This document shows positions 19,251-61,622 of a stretch of DNA of 64,000 bases, piece after piece. The translations under genes were made by a program, and so were the position numbers. A model generated the notes under the pieces. The model was not told where the DNA came from. It did not search any database and saw nothing but the letters and a program-made list of their open reading frames with translations. The stretch is taken from contig JAKOUY010000040.1 of assembly GCA_029782355.1 (NCBI GenBank), positions 124,001-188,000 of the forward strand, read 5' to 3'. The DNA comes from Actinomycetes bacterium. GTDB taxonomy: Bacteria; Actinomycetota; Acidimicrobiia; Acidimicrobiales; Ilumatobacteraceae. Position 1 is the stretch's first letter. Each line of letters opens with the position of its first letter.

Positions 19251-20684
19251 TCAGCGAGCGCTGGACGAGATCAGCACCAGCGAGACGATCGCCAACGCCA
19301 CTCCGAGACGCTGGATCGGCGTCACTCGTTCGTGATCAATCGTCACGGCGAGTCCCACCGTCGCCACCGGATACAGCGAGGCGACGATGGCCACCAACGA
19401 GAGCATGCCTCGGTGGGCCGCCATCACGTACAGCAGGGTGCCGAACATGTCGAGTTGGCCGGCTGCCAACGTCGTGGCCCGGCTACGCAGGGCTCGCGGG
19501 ATCGCCGCCAGGCCGCCTGAACGACGGGCGGTCAGAGCCGCGGACCGCGCGGCCGGCCGATCCAACGAGGCGTCGGCGGACTCGCCGATCGACCGGTCGA
19601 CTGGCCGGAAGCCCGACCGGAAGTCCGACCGTGAGACGGACCGCGAGACGGACCGCGAGACGGACCGCGAGACGGACCGCGAGACGGAACGCGCGACGGA
19701 ACGCGGGACAGACTGCGGGACCGACCGCGGGACCGACGGTGAGACGGATCGGAAGCCGGCGACGCTGACGGAGAGTCCGGCGACTCCGGCGAGCTGCGGA
19801 CCGGTTGGTCGCCGAGTCGTGGCTCGCCCATTGACCGCTGCCGCGGCGAGCGTTGCTGCTGCTGCATCCGGCTGAAGCACCACCATCCGTGCAACCGCCC
19901 GTCCCGGCTCGACGAGTGCCCGCAGCCTGGGGTCGGCAGCGGCGGCAGCAGCAGCGGCGGTGGCGGCCGTGGCGGTGGCGGCCGTGGCGGTGGCGGCATT
20001 GGCGAGGAGGCCGGTGTCGGCGCAGCCCGCACCGGCGGGTTCCGTGCTGCGGGCACGGGCGCCCGTCGTGGCTCGGGCGTTGGCGGCGACGAAGAGCCAC
20101 ATCATCGGCGCGCCACCGACCCGGGTCAGCGCCACCGTCCACAGTTCGTGCCCGGCGGGGAAGCCGTGGACGAACGAGAACATCGACCCGAAGCAGGCGC
20201 CCGCCGTCAGCGCCCCGGCCACCACCATGGGCGACGTGAACCGCACCGCGTGATCGTGCATCGCCTTGCTGACCAGGGCCACGGCGACGCATCCGACGGC
20301 GATCCCCGTCAGCCCGGCCGGACCTGGTCGCTCGCCGCCGGCCAGCCCGACCAGCGCCGGGATCAGAGCGGCCACGGCGGCGGTGAGCGGGGCCACCACG
20401 GCCATCGCCCCGCGAGACAGGCACCAATAGAGCAGCGCCTGCCCGATCGCCCCGACGATCCCGGCCAGCACGGCCATGGCCGTCGCCCGGCTGGCGATCG
20501 ACGTCGGCAACGGATCGTGACCAGCGAGGCCGACCGCCAGCAGGAGCAGCATGGCCACCACGCCAGCGCCGGTCTCGCCGATCGCCGCGACTCGCCACGC
20601 CGTCTGGGTGCGGGCGGCTCGCCCGCCACAGAAGTCGCCGACACCGAAGAGCAGCGCCGCGGCGAGGGCGATCATCACGGGCAT
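19251..20684 (-). CDS. EamA/DMT-type transporter with ~185-residue low-complexity insertion
   Basis: A 477-residue protein where ~290 would be usual. Residues 1-~210 hold the first EamA half and two helices of the second (MIALAAALLFGVGDFCGGR to LTRVGGAPMMWLFVAA). Residues ~215-395 are Ala/Thr-rich then (SRSV)n-rich, encoded by ten 12-bp units at 19631-19750 and a GC-rich repeat near 19935-20000. The remaining three helices follow (LDMFGTLLYVMAAHRGMLSL to RLGVALAIVSLVLI). The frame is intact throughout, so the insert is probably translated and sits in the loop between helices 7 and 8. ATG 20684 is preceded by GGGGG. Substrate unknown. Confidence 0.75.
   Translation of the reverse strand: MPVMIALAAALLFGVGDFCGGRAARTQTAWRVAAIGETGAGVVAMLLLLAVGLAGHDPLPTSIASRATAMAVLAGIVGAIGQALLYWCLSRGAMAVVAPLTAAVAALIPALVGLAGGERPGPAGLTGIAVGCVAVALVSKAMHDHAVRFTSPMVVAGALTAGACFGSMFSFVHGFPAGHELWTVALTRVGGAPMMWLFVAANARATTGARARSTEPAGAGCADTGLLANAATATAATATAATAAAAAAAADPRLRALVEPGRAVARMVVLQPDAAAATLAAAAVNGRATTRRPTGPQLAGVAGLSVSVAGFRSVSPSVPRSVPQSVPRSVARSVSRSVSRSVSRSVSRSVSRSDFRSGFRPVDRSIGESADASLDRPAARSAALTARRSGGLAAIPRALRSRATTLAAGQLDMFGTLLYVMAAHRGMLSLVAIVASLYPVATVGLAVTIDHERVTPIQRLGVALAIVSLVLISSSAR
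19631..19750. repeat. ten 12-bp tandem units inside the DMT transporter gene
   Basis: Consecutive 12-bp units of the GCGAGACGGACC type run from 19631 to 19750; the first five are nearly identical and the rest drift. On the coding strand each unit gives four residues of the SRSV type. Because the unit is a multiple of three, gain or loss of copies keeps the frame. Confidence 0.85.
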
Positions 20685-20869
20685 GCCTTGCACCCCCGAC
20701 GCCCACGAGTCTCGACGCGCCTGCCGCTCCCGCCCCGCCCGCTGATCATGGCTCGTAGAGGCGACGACATCGACCGCTGATACGTCGCCTGGCGCGAGCG
20801 GGTTCGCGCCCGCCGTCCGGCGCGGCCTGCGGCCACCGCACACGCCTGGCAGCAGTCAGGTGGATCGTG

Positions 20870-21044
20870 GTCGACGCTTCGTCGACGCCTCGCCCACGCC
20901 TCGCCCACGCCTCGTCGACGCTCATCGAAGCTGCGTCGACTCCCGGTCGATACGTGGTCGACACGTGGTCGACGCTTCGTCAACGCTTCGTCAACGCTTC
21001 GTCAACGCTTGGTCAACACTTCCTCAACACTTGGTCAACACTTG
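20870..21044. repeat. array of sixteen ~11-bp direct repeats
   Basis: Units begin GTCGACGCTTC (20870-20880), pass through GCCCACGCCTC, GTCGATACGTG and GTCGACACGTG, then become GTCAACGCTTC and finally GTCAACACTTG (21034-21044). Nearly all are 11 bp, one helical turn, so every copy faces the same side of the DNA; two units near 20925-20944 are 10 bp. The array ends in the palindrome that overlaps the amidohydrolase promoter. The rest of the 391-bp gap (20685-20869) shows no gene; an AGGCGAC/GTCGCCT inverted repeat lies near 20758-20790. Confidence 0.85.
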
Positions 21045-21069
21045 ACTCAGTCAAGAGTGGCGCTAGGAT
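21041..21069 (+). promoter_or_regulatory. leaderless promoter with 15-bp palindromic operator
   Basis: CTTGACTCAGTCAAG (21041-21055) is a perfect palindrome around one central base. It contains the -35 TTGACT (21042-21047); 16 bases later lies TAGGAT (21064-21069), and ATG 21076 follows after 6 bases, so the transcript should start at the start codon. The symmetry and placement suit a MarR-type repressor, and the third gene of this operon encodes one. Confidence 0.6.
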
Positions 21070-21075
21070 GTCGGC

Positions 21076-22335
21076 ATGTCTGACACCGCCACCCTCGCCC
21101 CGGATGCCCGCGCCGCCCGACCCGACGCCACCGCCACCGAGCGCTCGCGTTACACGATGATCTCGGCGGACTGCCACGCCGGGGCCAACCACGCCACCTA
21201 CCGCGAGTACCTCGCCCCGGAGTGGCGTGACGAGTTCGACGCCTGGCGCGGTCAGTACAAGAACCCGTTCCGCGACCTCCAGGACGACGGCCGGACGCGC
21301 AACTGGGACAACGAGCGGCGGATCCGCGAGCTGCACGAGGACGGGACCGTCGGCGAGGTGGTGTTCCCCAACACCGTGCCGCCGTTCTTCCCCACCGGCT
21401 CGACCATCGCTCCGGCACCCAGGCCGGAGGACTTCGAGCGGCGCCTCGCCGGCGTCATGGCCCACAACCGCTGGCTGGTCGACTTCGTGGCCGTCGACCC
21501 GGCGGCACGCGCCGGGCTCGGGCAGATCTTCCTGAACGACATCGACCTGGCCGTCGAGGGCGTCCACTGGGCCGCCGAGCACGGCATGAAGGGCATCCTG
21601 CTGCCCGGGGTCTCCCCGGATACCCCGTGGATCGAACCGCTGTACTCGCCGAACTACGACCCGATCTGGCGGGCCGTGGAGGAGACCGGTCTGGTGCTCA
21701 CCCACCACAGCGGAGCCACCGGTGTGCCCAACTTCGGCAAGTACACGATCTCCACCGTGATCTACGTCCTCGAAGCCGGCTTCTACGCCAACCGGGCGCT
21801 GTGGCACCTGGTGATGTCCGGCGTGTTCGAGCGGTTCCCGGGCCTCAAGTTCGTGATGACCGAGCAGGGCTCCGGCTGGGTGCTGCCGGTGCTGGAGCGC
21901 ATGGATCACATCGGGGCGCAGATGGCCAAGGGGCGGGTCGGCGAGCTCGGCGCGGCCACCGACACGCCACTGTCGATGAAGCCCAGCGAGTACTTCGCCC
22001 GCAACTGCTGGATCGGCGCCAGCTTCCCCGGACGCGACGAGGCACTGGCGATCCGCCAGATCACCGAGCTCTACGGCGACCGGGTGATGTGGGGGAGCGA
22101 CTACCCGCATCACGAAGCCACCTCGCCGTTCTCCAAGGAGTCGCTGAGCTATGCGTTCTACGACTTCACGCCCGACGAGATGCGCAAGCTGCTCAGCGTC
22201 AACATCGCCGATGTCTACGGCTTCGACCTCGACGCCTTGGATCCCCTCGGCCGGCAGTTCGGCCCGACCGTGGGGGAGGTGGCCACCCGCCAGGACGCCC
22301 CGGCCGGCGCCACCAGCCCGGCGTTCATGCGCTGA
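21076..22335 (+). CDS. amidohydrolase family 2 metal-dependent hydrolase
   Basis: A 419-residue TIM-barrel protein of the amidohydrolase_2 (ACMSD/LigJ-like) group. Likely metal-binding stretches are MISADCHAGANH near the N-terminus, GLVLTHHSGATG in the middle and MWGSDYPHHEATSP near the C-terminus. FVMTEQGSGWVLPVLERMDH is also typical. The family hydrolyses or decarboxylates ring-cleavage products and related acids; the substrate is not deducible. First gene of an operon with a DegT-fold gene, a MarR regulator and an SDR, transcribed from the leaderless promoter at 21041-21069. Confidence 0.85.
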   Translation: MSDTATLAPDARAARPDATATERSRYTMISADCHAGANHATYREYLAPEWRDEFDAWRGQYKNPFRDLQDDGRTRNWDNERRIRELHEDGTVGEVVFPNTVPPFFPTGSTIAPAPRPEDFERRLAGVMAHNRWLVDFVAVDPAARAGLGQIFLNDIDLAVEGVHWAAEHGMKGILLPGVSPDTPWIEPLYSPNYDPIWRAVEETGLVLTHHSGATGVPNFGKYTISTVIYVLEAGFYANRALWHLVMSGVFERFPGLKFVMTEQGSGWVLPVLERMDHIGAQMAKGRVGELGAATDTPLSMKPSEYFARNCWIGASFPGRDEALAIRQITELYGDRVMWGSDYPHHEATSPFSKESLSYAFYDFTPDEMRKLLSVNIADVYGFDLDALDPLGRQFGPTVGEVATRQDAPAGATSPAFMR

Positions 22336-22353: not shown

Positions 22354-23682
22354 GTGAACCGCATCGACTACGCCGGCAGCGTCCACGACCAGGAGGAGAT
22401 CGACGCCGTGCTCGCCGTGCTCAACGGCGGTCCGACCGCCCTGCGCATCGGCAAGCACGTCCGCGAGATGGAGCGGCTGGTTGCCGAGACCTTCGCCAAG
22501 CGCCGCGGCGTCATGGTCAACTCCGGCTCGTCGGCGCTGTACCTCGCCGTCGAGCTGCTCCGGCCGCAGCCCGGCGACGAGATCGTCACCGCGGCCGTGA
22601 CCTTCAGCACCGACATCGCCCCGATGGTCCGGGCGGGAGTCACCCCCGTCTTCGTCGACGTCGTCGCCGACACGTACCAGATCGACACCGACCAGATCGA
22701 GGGGGCCATCGGGCCACGGACCCGGGCGATCCTGGCGCCGAACCTGATCGGCAACTGCCCGGATTGGGACGTGATCCGCGAGATCGCCGACCGCCACGGC
22801 CTGACGGTCATCGAGGACAGCTGCGACTGCCTCGGCGCCACGCTGCGCGGCACGCCGACGGGCGCCCGGGCAGACGTCTCGCTGACCAGCTTCGCCCTCA
22901 GCCACATCATCACGGCCGCCGGGACCGGCGGGATGATCTGCCTGGACGACACCGAGCTGATCGATCGGGCCCTGCTGCTGCGCCGCTGGGGGCGCCGCAG
23001 CGAGGTCAAGTTGTTCGGCAGCCAGAAGGGCGACACCCGGTTCTTCAGCAAGCTGGGCGGAACCCACGGCAACGGGAACGGCAGCGGGGACGGCAACGGG
23101 ACCGGCGCGGTGCCCGCCGGCCGGCCCGAGAACCGGCCCGAGAACCGGCCCGAGATCCGGCCCGACATCGAGTACGACGACCTGTTCATCTTCGACGAGG
23201 TCGGCTGGAACTTCGAGCCGTCGGAGCTGTCGGCGGCGTTCGGGGTGGTCCAGATGCGCAAGCTCGGCGCCAACCTGGCCCGCCGCAAGCGCAACTACGA
23301 GCTGCTCAGCGAGCGCTTCGCGGCCTACCCGGACGTGTTCACCCTGCCGCGGTTGACGCCCGGCGTGGACACGGCGTGGCACATGTTCCCGATCCTCATC
23401 GACCCGGCCAGCCAGGTCCGGCGCGCCGAGTTCCAGGTGTTCATGGAGCAGCGTGGCATCGACACCCGCATGGTCTGGACCGGCAACGCCACCCGCCAAC
23501 CGGCGTTCCGCCACGTCCCTCACCGGGTGGCGGCGGGCGGGCTGGCCAACGCCGACCGGATCATGGAGACCGGCCTGATCCTGCCCTGCAACCACGCCAT
23601 CGACGACGCCGGGTGCGCCTACATCGGCGACACGCTCGACGAGTTCATGCGCCGCCCCGGAGCGACGGCGAGCCGGGCATGA
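22354..23682 (+). CDS. DegT-fold PLP/PMP enzyme with His in place of the catalytic Lys
   Basis: A 442-residue fold-type I enzyme. The N-terminal substrate segment is RRGVMVNSGSSALYLAVELL; the cofactor aspartate region is TVIEDSCDCLGATLRG. Where sugar aminotransferases have SFxxxK, this protein reads SFALSHIITAAGTGG, with His at the Lys position, as in the PMP-dependent 3-dehydratases ColD and E1 (RfbH). LLLRRWGRRSE and GNATRQPAFRH also match that group, but the iron-sulfur cysteines of E1 are absent. A Gly/Asn/Pro-rich insert with 12-bp repeats lies near 23065-23170. So a dehydratase is likelier than an aminotransferase. Its stop overlaps the marR start (ATGA). Confidence 0.78.
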   Translation: MNRIDYAGSVHDQEEIDAVLAVLNGGPTALRIGKHVREMERLVAETFAKRRGVMVNSGSSALYLAVELLRPQPGDEIVTAAVTFSTDIAPMVRAGVTPVFVDVVADTYQIDTDQIEGAIGPRTRAILAPNLIGNCPDWDVIREIADRHGLTVIEDSCDCLGATLRGTPTGARADVSLTSFALSHIITAAGTGGMICLDDTELIDRALLLRRWGRRSEVKLFGSQKGDTRFFSKLGGTHGNGNGSGDGNGTGAVPAGRPENRPENRPEIRPDIEYDDLFIFDEVGWNFEPSELSAAFGVVQMRKLGANLARRKRNYELLSERFAAYPDVFTLPRLTPGVDTAWHMFPILIDPASQVRRAEFQVFMEQRGIDTRMVWTGNATRQPAFRHVPHRVAAGGLANADRIMETGLILPCNHAIDDAGCAYIGDTLDEFMRRPGATASRA

Positions 23683-24167
23683 GCGCCCGTGACGACGCCC
23701 TCGAGTCCGTCCTCGGCGGTATCGGCCGGCTCAACCGGCTGACCAACAGCCGGCGGACCTACGCCCTGGCGGCCACCGCGGCCGACGTGCCCCTCGGGGC
23801 GCAGGAGATGCAGGTCCTGCGCGTCGTGGCCCTCGACGGCGCCACCACCGCCGGCGAGGTCGCCCGCCGAGCGCGCATGGATGCCGGCGCGGTCAGCCGC
23901 CAGCTCCCGTCGCTGGAACGCGCCGGGCTGCTCAGCCGGCGCAGCGGGCCGGGCAACAGCGTCGTGCTGGCTGCCACCGACACCGGCCGCGACGCCGTCG
24001 AGGCCCTCGACTCGGTGCGCATGGCCCAACTGCAACGGGCCCTGCGCCACTGGTCCAATGCCGAGCTGGCCCAGTTCGCCACATTGCTGGCCCGCTTCGT
24101 CACCGACACCACGGCCACGCCGTACGAGTCGGGCGATCGCCGGGTGCCGGTGGGGGAGCGGTCGTGA
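23679..24167 (+). CDS. MarR-family transcriptional regulator
   Basis: A 162-residue winged-helix regulator: LGAQEMQVLRVVALDGATTA, GEVARRARMDAGAVSRQLPS (recognition helix), LERAGLLSRRSGPGNSVVLA and a C-terminal dimer helix. The ATG overlaps the stop of the DegT-fold gene and its own stop overlaps the SDR start, so it is coupled in the middle of the operon. It is the best candidate to bind the palindrome at 21041-21055 and so regulate its own operon, but this is inferred from position and site symmetry. Confidence 0.85.
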   Translation: MSARDDALESVLGGIGRLNRLTNSRRTYALAATAADVPLGAQEMQVLRVVALDGATTAGEVARRARMDAGAVSRQLPSLERAGLLSRRSGPGNSVVLAATDTGRDAVEALDSVRMAQLQRALRHWSNAELAQFATLLARFVTDTTATPYESGDRRVPVGERS

Positions 24168-25129
24168 CCGGACATGACCGGACGTCACCGCACGTGACCG
24201 GACGTCAAGCGCACGATGAGCGCACGATGAGCGCACGGTTCGCCGGTCGCCGGGCGCTGGTCACCGGCGCCAGCCGCGGCATCGGGGTCGGCATCGCTGA
24301 GCGCCTCGCCGCGGAGGGCGCCAGCGTGGCGGTCACCGCCCGCACCGTCGAGCACCACGATCACCTGGCCGGCAGCCTGCGCGAGACGGTGGCCCGGCTG
24401 CGTGGACTGCGCGCCCTGACCGAGCCGGGTGCGCCAGCGGCCGTGACGGGCGACGGGCCCGAGCGGGGCGCCGTCGTGGCGATCGCCGCCGACCTCGCCG
24501 ATGCCGACGACCGGGCCACCCTGGTCGAGCGGGCCGCCGAGGCACTCGGCGGACCGATCGAGATCCTGGTGAACAACGCCGCCGCGGCGGTGTACGGGCC
24601 GGTGGGCGACTACCCGCTGCGCCGCCGGCGGATGATGTACGAGGTCAACGTGCACGCCCCGATCGACCTGGCCCAGGCAGTGATCCCGGCCATGGTCGCC
24701 GCCGGCGAGGGTTGGATCGTCAACGTATCCAGCGGTTCGGCCCGCCACCCCGAAGGGCCACCCTTCCGCACCGATGGGGTGGCCCTGACCTTCGGCGTCT
24801 ACGGCAGCACCAAAGCCGCCCTCAACCGGATCACCGGCGCGCTGGCGGCGGAGCTGTACGGCACCGGCATCCGGGTCAACACCGTCGAGCCGCGTGCCGC
24901 GGTGCTGTCGGAGGGCGCCGAGGCGGTCATGCGTGGGTCGTTGCGTGCCGATCAGATCGAACCGCTCGAGGCCATGGTCGAAGCGGCGGTGGCGCTGTGC
25001 TGCTGCCCGACCGATCACACCGGTCGGGTCGAGGTCAGCCTCGACCTGCTGGCCCGTGACGGCCTCACCGTGCACACCCTCGACGGCCGACGCGTCTACG
25101 ACCCCGCCGACCCCCGCCCGACGGCCTGA
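24164..25129 (+). CDS. SDR-family oxidoreductase
   Basis: A 321-residue short-chain dehydrogenase. Visible are the cofactor motif ALVTGASRGIGVGIAERLAA, the structural VNNAAAAVYGP, catalytic Ser in WIVNVSSGSARH and the YGSTKAALNRITG Tyr-Lys motif. GTG 24164 is supported by a GGGGGAG ribosome binding site and a GTGA overlap with marR; ATG 24227 would remove a 21-residue tail encoded by 11-bp-period repeats (ACCGGAC then AGCGCACGATG words, 24164-24240). The substrate is unknown; it presumably acts with the amidohydrolase and DegT-fold enzyme. The 3' end overlaps the convergent smpB by 34 bases. Confidence 0.85.
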   Translation: MTGHDRTSPHVTGRQAHDERTMSARFAGRRALVTGASRGIGVGIAERLAAEGASVAVTARTVEHHDHLAGSLRETVARLRGLRALTEPGAPAAVTGDGPERGAVVAIAADLADADDRATLVERAAEALGGPIEILVNNAAAAVYGPVGDYPLRRRRMMYEVNVHAPIDLAQAVIPAMVAAGEGWIVNVSSGSARHPEGPPFRTDGVALTFGVYGSTKAALNRITGALAAELYGTGIRVNTVEPRAAVLSEGAEAVMRGSLRADQIEPLEAMVEAAVALCCCPTDHTGRVEVSLDLLARDGLTVHTLDGRRVYDPADPRPTA

Positions 25130-52721: not shown

Positions 52722-52886
52722 GTCCGCCACGTCGGTGAGGGCGTGAACGCCGGCTCCCGGTGCCATGGGCGCGGACGTCGCCACGTCGGTGAGGGGCGCG
52801 AGCGCCGGCTCCCGGTCCCATGGGCGCGGACGTCGCCACGTCGGTGAGGGGCGCGAGCGCCGGCTCCCGGTCCCATGGGCGCGCTG
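52722..52886. repeat. three tandem 55-bp repeats
   Basis: Units at 52722-52776, 52777-52831 and 52832-52886, the last two nearly identical. Each contains CCACGTCGGTGAGGG, CGCCGGCTCCCGG and CCATGGGCGCG, so each ends in the left arm of the 48-bp palindrome. The 501-bp gap between the CoA-transferase start and the recQ stop has no gene. Confidence 0.85.
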
Positions 52887-61055: not shown

Positions 61056-61246
61056 CAGCGGGCCCCCGTCCGGCTGGCGGCACCCAGCTCGGCCTCACGA
61101 GGGATGTCCGAACCGGCCGCCGTCACGCCACTGATCTTCGCGCCGGACCCCCACCCGCCCGCGCCGAGTGGCCGGCCACCCGCCCCGGCCGCCCCGGCGC
61201 CCGCCCGCCCGGCCGCCCCGCCCGTGCCGCAACGACTTCCCCCGAT
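61056..61246. other. gene-free stretch upstream of the palindrome array
   Basis: I see no reading frame with coding character and no RNA gene. The sequence is extremely C-rich with runs of CCGCCC/GGCCGCC. Together with the repeats to 61606 it forms a 708-bp gap between the LLM gene and dnaE2. Confidence 0.5.
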
Positions 61247-61618
61247 CCCATGGGCGCGCAGACATCCGCTCGTGCACGTTTCCGCGCCCATGGGTCCGAG
61301 GGCGGTCACCGGAGAGGCACCCGACGGGTGAGGCGCGCCCGTCCGCGCCGGGTCCGGGTTGTCGCCGCCGCTCGTCCGGTGTGATGACTCCTCCCGATCC
61401 CATGGGTGCGCAGACATCCGCTCGTGCACGTTTCCGCGCCCATGGGTCCGAGGGCGGTCACGGCGGGTACCGGAGAGGCACCCGACGGTGAGGCGCGCCC
61501 GTCCGCGCCGGGTCCGGGTTGTCGCCGCCGCTCGCCCGGTGTGATGACTCCTCCCGATCCCATGGGTGCGCAGACATCCGCTCGTGCACGTTTCCGCGCC
61601 CATGGGTCCGAAGGTGGT
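61232..61618. repeat. tandem array of 152/160-bp units containing 48-bp palindromes
   Basis: Three 48-bp palindromes start at 61247, 61399 and 61559, so the period is 152 and then 160 bp; an 8-bp insertion (around GGCGGGTAC) explains the difference. Each has arms CCCATGGGYGCG and CGCGCCCATGGG and an identical 24-base core including ACATCCGCTCGTGCACG. Between them GGTCCGAGGGCGGTCAC, GGAGAGGCACCCGACGG and GTGATGACTCCTCCCGATC recur. No frame is conserved in all units. Confidence 0.85.
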
Positions 61619-61622
61619 CACG

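Follow-up and report, generated by a model that had tools for sequence, protein, structure and literature searches.

A probable MarR operator and an adjoining array of 11-bp direct repeats at the promoter of an amidohydrolase operon in Ilumatobacteraceae

Within a 64,000-nt stretch of an Ilumatobacteraceae genome (hereafter, the window), head-to-tail copies of an 11-bp unit run into a palindrome placed over the -35 element of a metabolic operon whose third gene encodes a MarR-family regulator. The locus raises the question of which of these two elements would act as the switch of the operon, and of what the other one is. An earlier interpretation made without database searches (the sequence-only reading) had proposed the array as a multi-site operator or spreading platform for the MarR protein. 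We will refer to the elements as the palindrome and the array, and follow them separately through the own genome and its relatives.

The operon, its promoter and the repeat array

On the plus strand, an amidohydrolase gene (21076..22335; PF04909 by Pfam) opens the operon and is followed by those of a DegT/DnrJ/EryC1 aminotransferase (22354..23682; PF01041), the MarR-family regulator (23679..24167; PF12802, 2.1e-8, and PF01047, 4.6e-6) and a short-chain dehydrogenase (24164..25129; PF00106, 1.3e-35). An ORF for an EamA transporter diverges from them on the minus strand (19251..20843; PF00892, 8.7e-13), with a start that on inspection is perhaps near 20684. Homologues of the amidohydrolase are present in 41 of the 61 genomes searched, own included. 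The sole sigma-70-like promoter called in 20650-21150 is TTGACT-16-TAGGAT (21042..21069, plus strand; 50 shuffles gave a mean of 0.0), and the palindrome CTTGACTCAGTCAAG (21041..21055, with no strand of its own) lies over its -35. The -10 hexamer, TAGGAT, occupies 21064-21069, and the ATG at 21076 stands 7 nt past its last base, which makes a leaderless message starting at this ATG plausible, as does the likeness to one relative (L013, below). The palindromic promoter with an overlapped -35 described in the sequence-only reading is thus borne out by the promoter call, the leaderless start keeping the rank of a plausible prediction.

The array (20870..21044, plus strand; consensus GTCGACGCTTC) was delimited by TRF, by lag analysis and from the list of units and their distances. 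It comprises 16 head-to-tail units, 15 of 11 bp and one of 10 bp (20914-20923), and ends exactly at the -35, its last unit having CTTG in common with the palindrome. Identity at lag 11 reaches 0.74 over 20868-21055, vs. a mean of 0.27 (sd 0.04, maximum 0.40) in 2000 Markov-1 resamples. The sixteen copies running into the palindrome had thus been correctly described, and other geometric claims fared less well: the regular 11-bp phasing holds for 15 units and breaks at the 10-bp one, while the smooth drift attributed to the repeats is found as a one-way series in units 10-16 (the proximal units running from GTCAACGCTTC to GTCAACACTTG) but not in the rest, where unit 1 equals unit 10 with divergent ones between them. 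Neither do the copies lie on nearly one face of the helix when the array is taken as a whole, since a helical repeat of 10.5 bp puts a rotation of 223 degrees between the first and the last unit; with 11.0 bp per turn the two would nearly align. The seven promoter-proximal units (20968..21044, plus strand) are the more homogeneous part, as judged from pairwise distances and GC, with a mean pairwise distance of 1.71 vs. 3.89 of 11 positions in units 1-9, and a GC content of ~0.53 (20967-21044) vs. 0.69 (20870-20956). The array was also considered as coding sequence and rejected as such: ORFs cross it on both strands (20867-21160, plus; 20675-20983, minus), and a period of 11 bp shifts the frame at each unit.

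Adjacent units differ at 2.2 positions, vs. 3.37 in shuffled order (p = 0.0001; by part, p = 0.024 for units 1-9 and p = 0.057 for units 10-16), and such likeness of neighbors is the mark of local tandem duplication. The own genome holds 114 tandem arrays in 464 kb (the window and 20 further stretches, ~12% of the genome), or 246 per Mb, which span many periods (e.g., 16-bp x5.2, 17-bp x4.5). Nine relatives hold 77 in 400 kb (193 per Mb), two of them exceeding the own genome, which is thus repeat-rich without being unique. One tandem array, called by TRF, forms an insert of ~34 residues (DNA ~23066-23165; GNGNGSGDGNGTG...RPENRPENRPE) in the DegT gene of the same operon. The homologues aligned across this insert, those of L013, L069, L071 and L080, lack it wholly or almost wholly, the alignment of a fifth ending before it. 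The array resembles a bacterial minisatellite or VNTR in its head-to-tail units, in the likeness of adjacent ones, in its one indel unit and in being absent from the examined relatives' promoters, and differs from it in abutting a promoter exactly and in being known from one strain. Some features speak against a by-product view: the array stops exactly at the -35, the repeat density of the genome is not exceptional, and of 31 changes between adjacent units 13 fall in the heptamer TCRACRC, which makes up 7 of the 11 columns (binomial p = 0.011, uncorrected and the smallest value over 11 phases). Three columns are moreover invariant (p = 0.008), although the variance from column to column is ordinary as a whole (p = 0.16). 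The avoidance of the heptamer and the invariant columns give a hint of constraint.

The palindrome and the MarR gene among relatives

The palindrome was followed through 77 amidohydrolase loci, 12 of the 30 from whole genomes (L012-L023) and all 65 from a contig search, a set outside which lie the own locus (L011) and 17 weaker ones (L024-L040). Every locus was oriented by tblastn, and the operator was sought anywhere in it with CTTGACTnAGTCAAG as reference. At up to two mismatches, it occurs in 12 of the 17 loci with a MarR gene and in none of the 60 without one (p = 1.7e-10, a value that overstates independence because the loci are related to each other). At up to three mismatches the proportions become 16/17 and 5/60; L079 is the sole locus with a MarR gene that lacks it at this threshold, and those without the gene that have it (L019, L057, L072, L092, L097) never come down to two mismatches. 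Within the own genome, the palindrome is found at up to two mismatches only at 21041-21055. In L013, where the order amidohydrolase-DegT-MarR is that of the window, CTTGACTCAGTCAAT is followed by TAGGAT and by an ATG 6 nt further, with no array. By eye, TTGAC lies inside the site in 12 of 15 operator flanks, and a -10-like hexamer comes after it in most of them.

This comparison supports the part of the sequence-only reading that involves the MarR protein at this promoter: the palindrome tracks the MarR gene among relatives and is probably the site of the operon's own MarR protein. The arrangement resembles that of a MarR operator over the -35 of an autoregulated operon, given the position of the palindrome, the MarR gene in the operon and their co-occurrence in relatives. 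The core of 15 bp is shorter than the 16-20 bp usual for MarR operators according to the available part of a review (PMC10458429); the site is otherwise ordinary, only the adjoining array being unusual. The MarR protein would bind this one palindrome over the -35 and, once bound, block RNA polymerase at the presumed leaderless start, so that the promoter would be a conserved, autoregulated one. It would provide, for an actinobacterial order, a comparatively supported candidate MarR operator (CTTGACTnAGTCAAG) of a metabolic operon.

Two further observations were made among these loci. In L068, two MarR-type operators separated by 28 bp lie about 1.2 kb upstream of the amidohydrolase; one of them overlaps a possible -35, and the other is close to a possible -10. 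In addition, records titled Bifidobacterium breve (L046) and Acidobacteria (L096) contain amidohydrolase homologues (58 and 60% identity, respectively) plus the operator; these titles may belong to mislabelled MAGs.

Similar arrays, and the readings of this one

The rest of the own genome yielded no comparable array. A DNA-similarity search of 298 genomes of the order matched 15, 14 of them not own; the loci inspected (L107-L115 by similarity and L117, the one non-own match by pattern, with five similarity-matched genomes without loci falling outside the inspection) include no array of this kind, reading by eye as coding or chance, while L107 repeats an 11-bp sequence two to three times. Among 150 genomes of the family, a pattern search at 3 mismatches matched 9, own included (none with the reversed pattern), and the 11-bp runs, at apparently intergenic places, are short, up to ~4.5 units. 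Taking one place for each of the other eight genomes, L167, L168, L169, L170 and L173 look intergenic, and L171, L172 and L174 appear to be coding sequence or chance matches. Near-perfect repeats make up L168, L169, L170 and L192, which suggests recent duplication and not boxes under selection. In a test of the period, 68 of 101 genomes matched among the matches listed, the reversed pattern also matching in many genomes. After hand-merging the overlapping entries of one array, 119 loci were obtained, and equal periods among those listed number 0 for 8 bp, 17 for 9, 3 for 10, 8 for 11 (own included), 26 for 12, 3 for 13 and 4 for 14, a modest excess of period 11 over the other non-multiples of 3; of the loci with period 11, two from G339 and one from G013 lie outside the inspection. 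A three-heptamer pattern gave 4 non-own matches in 397 genomes of the order vs. 1 for the reversed control, with L262 and L263 before response-regulator genes, L261 reading as coding and L264 being ambiguous and partly masked. Among the papers searched, none joins MarR with 11-bp tandem repeats, promoter and operator.

The proposal of the sequence-only reading, that the array itself provides the MarR protein with multiple operator sites or a platform for spreading, is very unlikely to be right. With a matrix built from 12 relatives' operators, the window's palindrome being outside the training set, the palindrome scores 27.8 and the relatives' operators 20.2-27.8, vs. 6.8 for the best site of the array, a score that is marginally above Markov resamples (p = 0.048) but that 2.5% of 2694 stretches taken from the own genome reach or exceed. 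The terminal units and the palindrome do have CTTG and GTCAA in common, and the operator pair of L068 indicates that more than one MarR site per promoter does occur. Nonetheless, the spacing from CTTG to TCAA within the array is 5 and 16 bp vs. 10 in the operator, which by its geometry would put the half-sites about half a turn off (one pair, at 21, spans from the array into the operator), and all 15 examinable operator flanks of relatives, 156 bp each, are array-free, with lag-11 identities of 0.20-0.37 and a best value of 0.45 at any period (L012 has the operator but its contig ends there, leaving its flank outside this check). Given low scores, a different half-site spacing and array-free flanks, the proposal is not supported.

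Tuning by spacing is another way in which a repeat tract could matter beside a repressor site, and a known case is that of NadR, which we take to be a MarR-family protein, and of a nadA tract presumably made of TAAA. A tract of variable length, acting in a similar manner on the promoter or on the divergent EamA gene, would fit a tandem array in a divergent intergenic region adjoining a MarR operator. The precedent is the nadA promoter of Neisseria meningitidis, controlled by NadR and carrying a phase-variable repeat tract, where a repressor operator also lies beside a tandem repeat (as far as the available part of PMC2791445 goes). We hold it improbable all the same: in that extract operators flank a simple-sequence repeat, whereas here there is one operator, at one end of the array, and units 1-9, at a mean distance of 3.89 of 11, are presumably too diverged for easy slippage. 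Finally, direct repeats of helical-turn length could recall an iteron-like replication or partition site, a reading to which we give almost no credit, as the array sits between metabolic genes in a 312-kb contig, Rfam returns no match at E <= 1 in 20400-21400, and there is no replication or partition protein among the five neighboring proteins scanned.

OmpR/PhoB-type boxes and the origin of the array

A reading that gives the array a function apart from the MarR protein is that of an enlarged OmpR/PhoB-type (or SARP-type) box, through which an unlinked response regulator would add signal-dependent control; each 11-bp unit (heptamer TCAACGC and a 4-bp spacer) would take one winged-helix monomer, and the monomers would line up head to tail as a filament of regulator beside the MarR-controlled promoter. 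We consider it possible but doubtful. In the extract of PMC7866108 available, the direct-repeat units of PhoP are of 11 nt and one promoter has four core and two ancillary units; that of PMC5930380 describes SARP boxes as heptamers with 4-bp spacers in two to three repeats. The array shares with PhoP/PhoB PHO boxes the 11-bp period and the promoter-proximal direct repeats (PMC7866108), and with SARP boxes the 7+4 spacing and the promoter-proximal position (PMC5930380). It differs from PHO boxes in its 16 units, in its sequence and in having no linked regulator, and from SARP boxes in the number of repeats without a SARP link; its 16 units exceed the operators described in both extracts.

Several findings favor such boxes in this order of bacteria. 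In genomes of three families, a triple TCAACnC-N4 box stands immediately before a gene for an OmpR-family response regulator, namely in G329 (L173; f1, the window's own), G219 (L263; f15) and G090 (L262; f55). L173 carries TCAACGCCTCCTCAACTCTTCATCAACGG directly before the gene; all three proteins have Response_reg and Trans_reg_C domains by Pfam, those of L173 and L263 being 73% identical, and the short array of L167 comes directly after an OmpR-family regulator gene. Thus, 3 of the 14 non-own places inspected from the searches of 150 family genomes and 397 order genomes and from the period test are directly upstream of OmpR-family genes, vs. ~0.0006 expected per place (our estimate, from 16 such genes x 150 bp in 3.8 Mb). 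Lag 11 is the strongest lag in the regions upstream of response-regulator genes, taken as two groups of 30 (z of 6.7 and 5.6 against mononucleotide shuffles; the L173 gene is itself part of group A, as L205, and this group also gives a z of 3.4 at lag 16), vs. a z of -0.3 at lag 11 in 59 amidohydrolase upstream regions, a control that is partly coding and itself peaks at lags 15 and 18 (z of 8.7 and 7.8). These comparisons point to a use of 11-bp direct repeats by OmpR-family regulators of this order at the promoters of their own genes. The array has the period and the heptamer of the boxes, the heptamer being the one that changes avoid (with the uncorrected p-value above), although the search pattern was the array's own, so that the likeness of sequence is partly due to selection.

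In the own genome, the candidate regulator of the array, proposed from sequence likeness, is a response regulator of contig C4 (51-55% identical to that of L262), which has TCCAAGATTCG-TCCAAGCCTGG, an 11-bp repeat other than the TCAAC one, before its start; TCAACGCTTCG matches the C4 unit at 8 of 11 positions in natural phase (P ~0.0014 per random 11-mer, before phase correction). Against this whole reading, the window's own contig (C13) contains no Trans_reg_C gene, and so no linked SARP regulator; at the 16 own Trans_reg_C loci, searches for triple boxes of TCAAC, TCGAC or GAAAC, with at most one mismatch in all, were negative; the genome has one other TCAAC-N6-TCAAC pair only, not evidently at a promoter, and no close relative of the L173/L263 regulator (best, 38-46%). 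Furthermore, the operon promoters of 15 relatives show no lag-11 signal, and in a sample of 800 kb of DNA a distance of 11 is not overrepresented among TCAAC pairs (1 pair). That the array is a 16-unit OmpR/PhoB-family platform beside the MarR operator, grown from a two- or three-unit box and giving the promoter two independent inputs, is therefore put forward tentatively. If true, the array would exceed severalfold in length the direct-repeat operators described in the available parts of PMC7866108 and PMC5930380. The array is possibly non-neutral, as the sequence-only reading held, because its unit has the format of an OmpR/PhoB-family box, which that reading did not consider.

The explanation that we favor, with moderate confidence, is that of a conserved MarR operator next to a lineage-specific 11-bp minisatellite, the latter unneeded for MarR control. 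The array is most likely a by-product of duplication, because the likely switch is a separate, conserved palindrome and the array is absent at the examined relatives' promoters. Through rounds of local tandem duplication, the minisatellite would have expanded along the upstream edge of the promoter, to be halted where the selected operator and promoter begin. Given the format of the unit, it may have started from an OmpR/PhoB-type box of two or three units. The probable switch would thus be one palindrome, and the conspicuous array an extra unseen in the relatives examined. If boxes do grow by slippage into long arrays, operators would have a simple route to gain or lose sites.

Other repeats were observed along the way. 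The own C4 response regulator (G000:C4:69488-70159; L260, L265) has TCCAAG 11-bp direct repeats before its probable leaderless start, and the TCCAAG repeat is also present in L266, L267, L269 and L275, out of 29 homologues at 57-71% identity. Upstream of another own OmpR-family regulator, L252 (G000:C35:396706-396927) contains four GCTGAG repeats spaced by 11, 10, and 11 bp. In the window, a 12-bp x10 repeat at 19627-19748, within the divergent EamA ORF, encodes Ser-Val-Ser-Arg runs, and the junction between the MarR and dehydrogenase genes (24159-24237) holds more short tandem arrays (10-bp x4.7 and 11-bp x2.7). Larger arrays at 61234-61622 (160-bp x2.5) and 52725-52883 (55-bp x2.9) both contain CCCATGGG motifs, and a motif of this type also adjoins the 17-bp array of L127.
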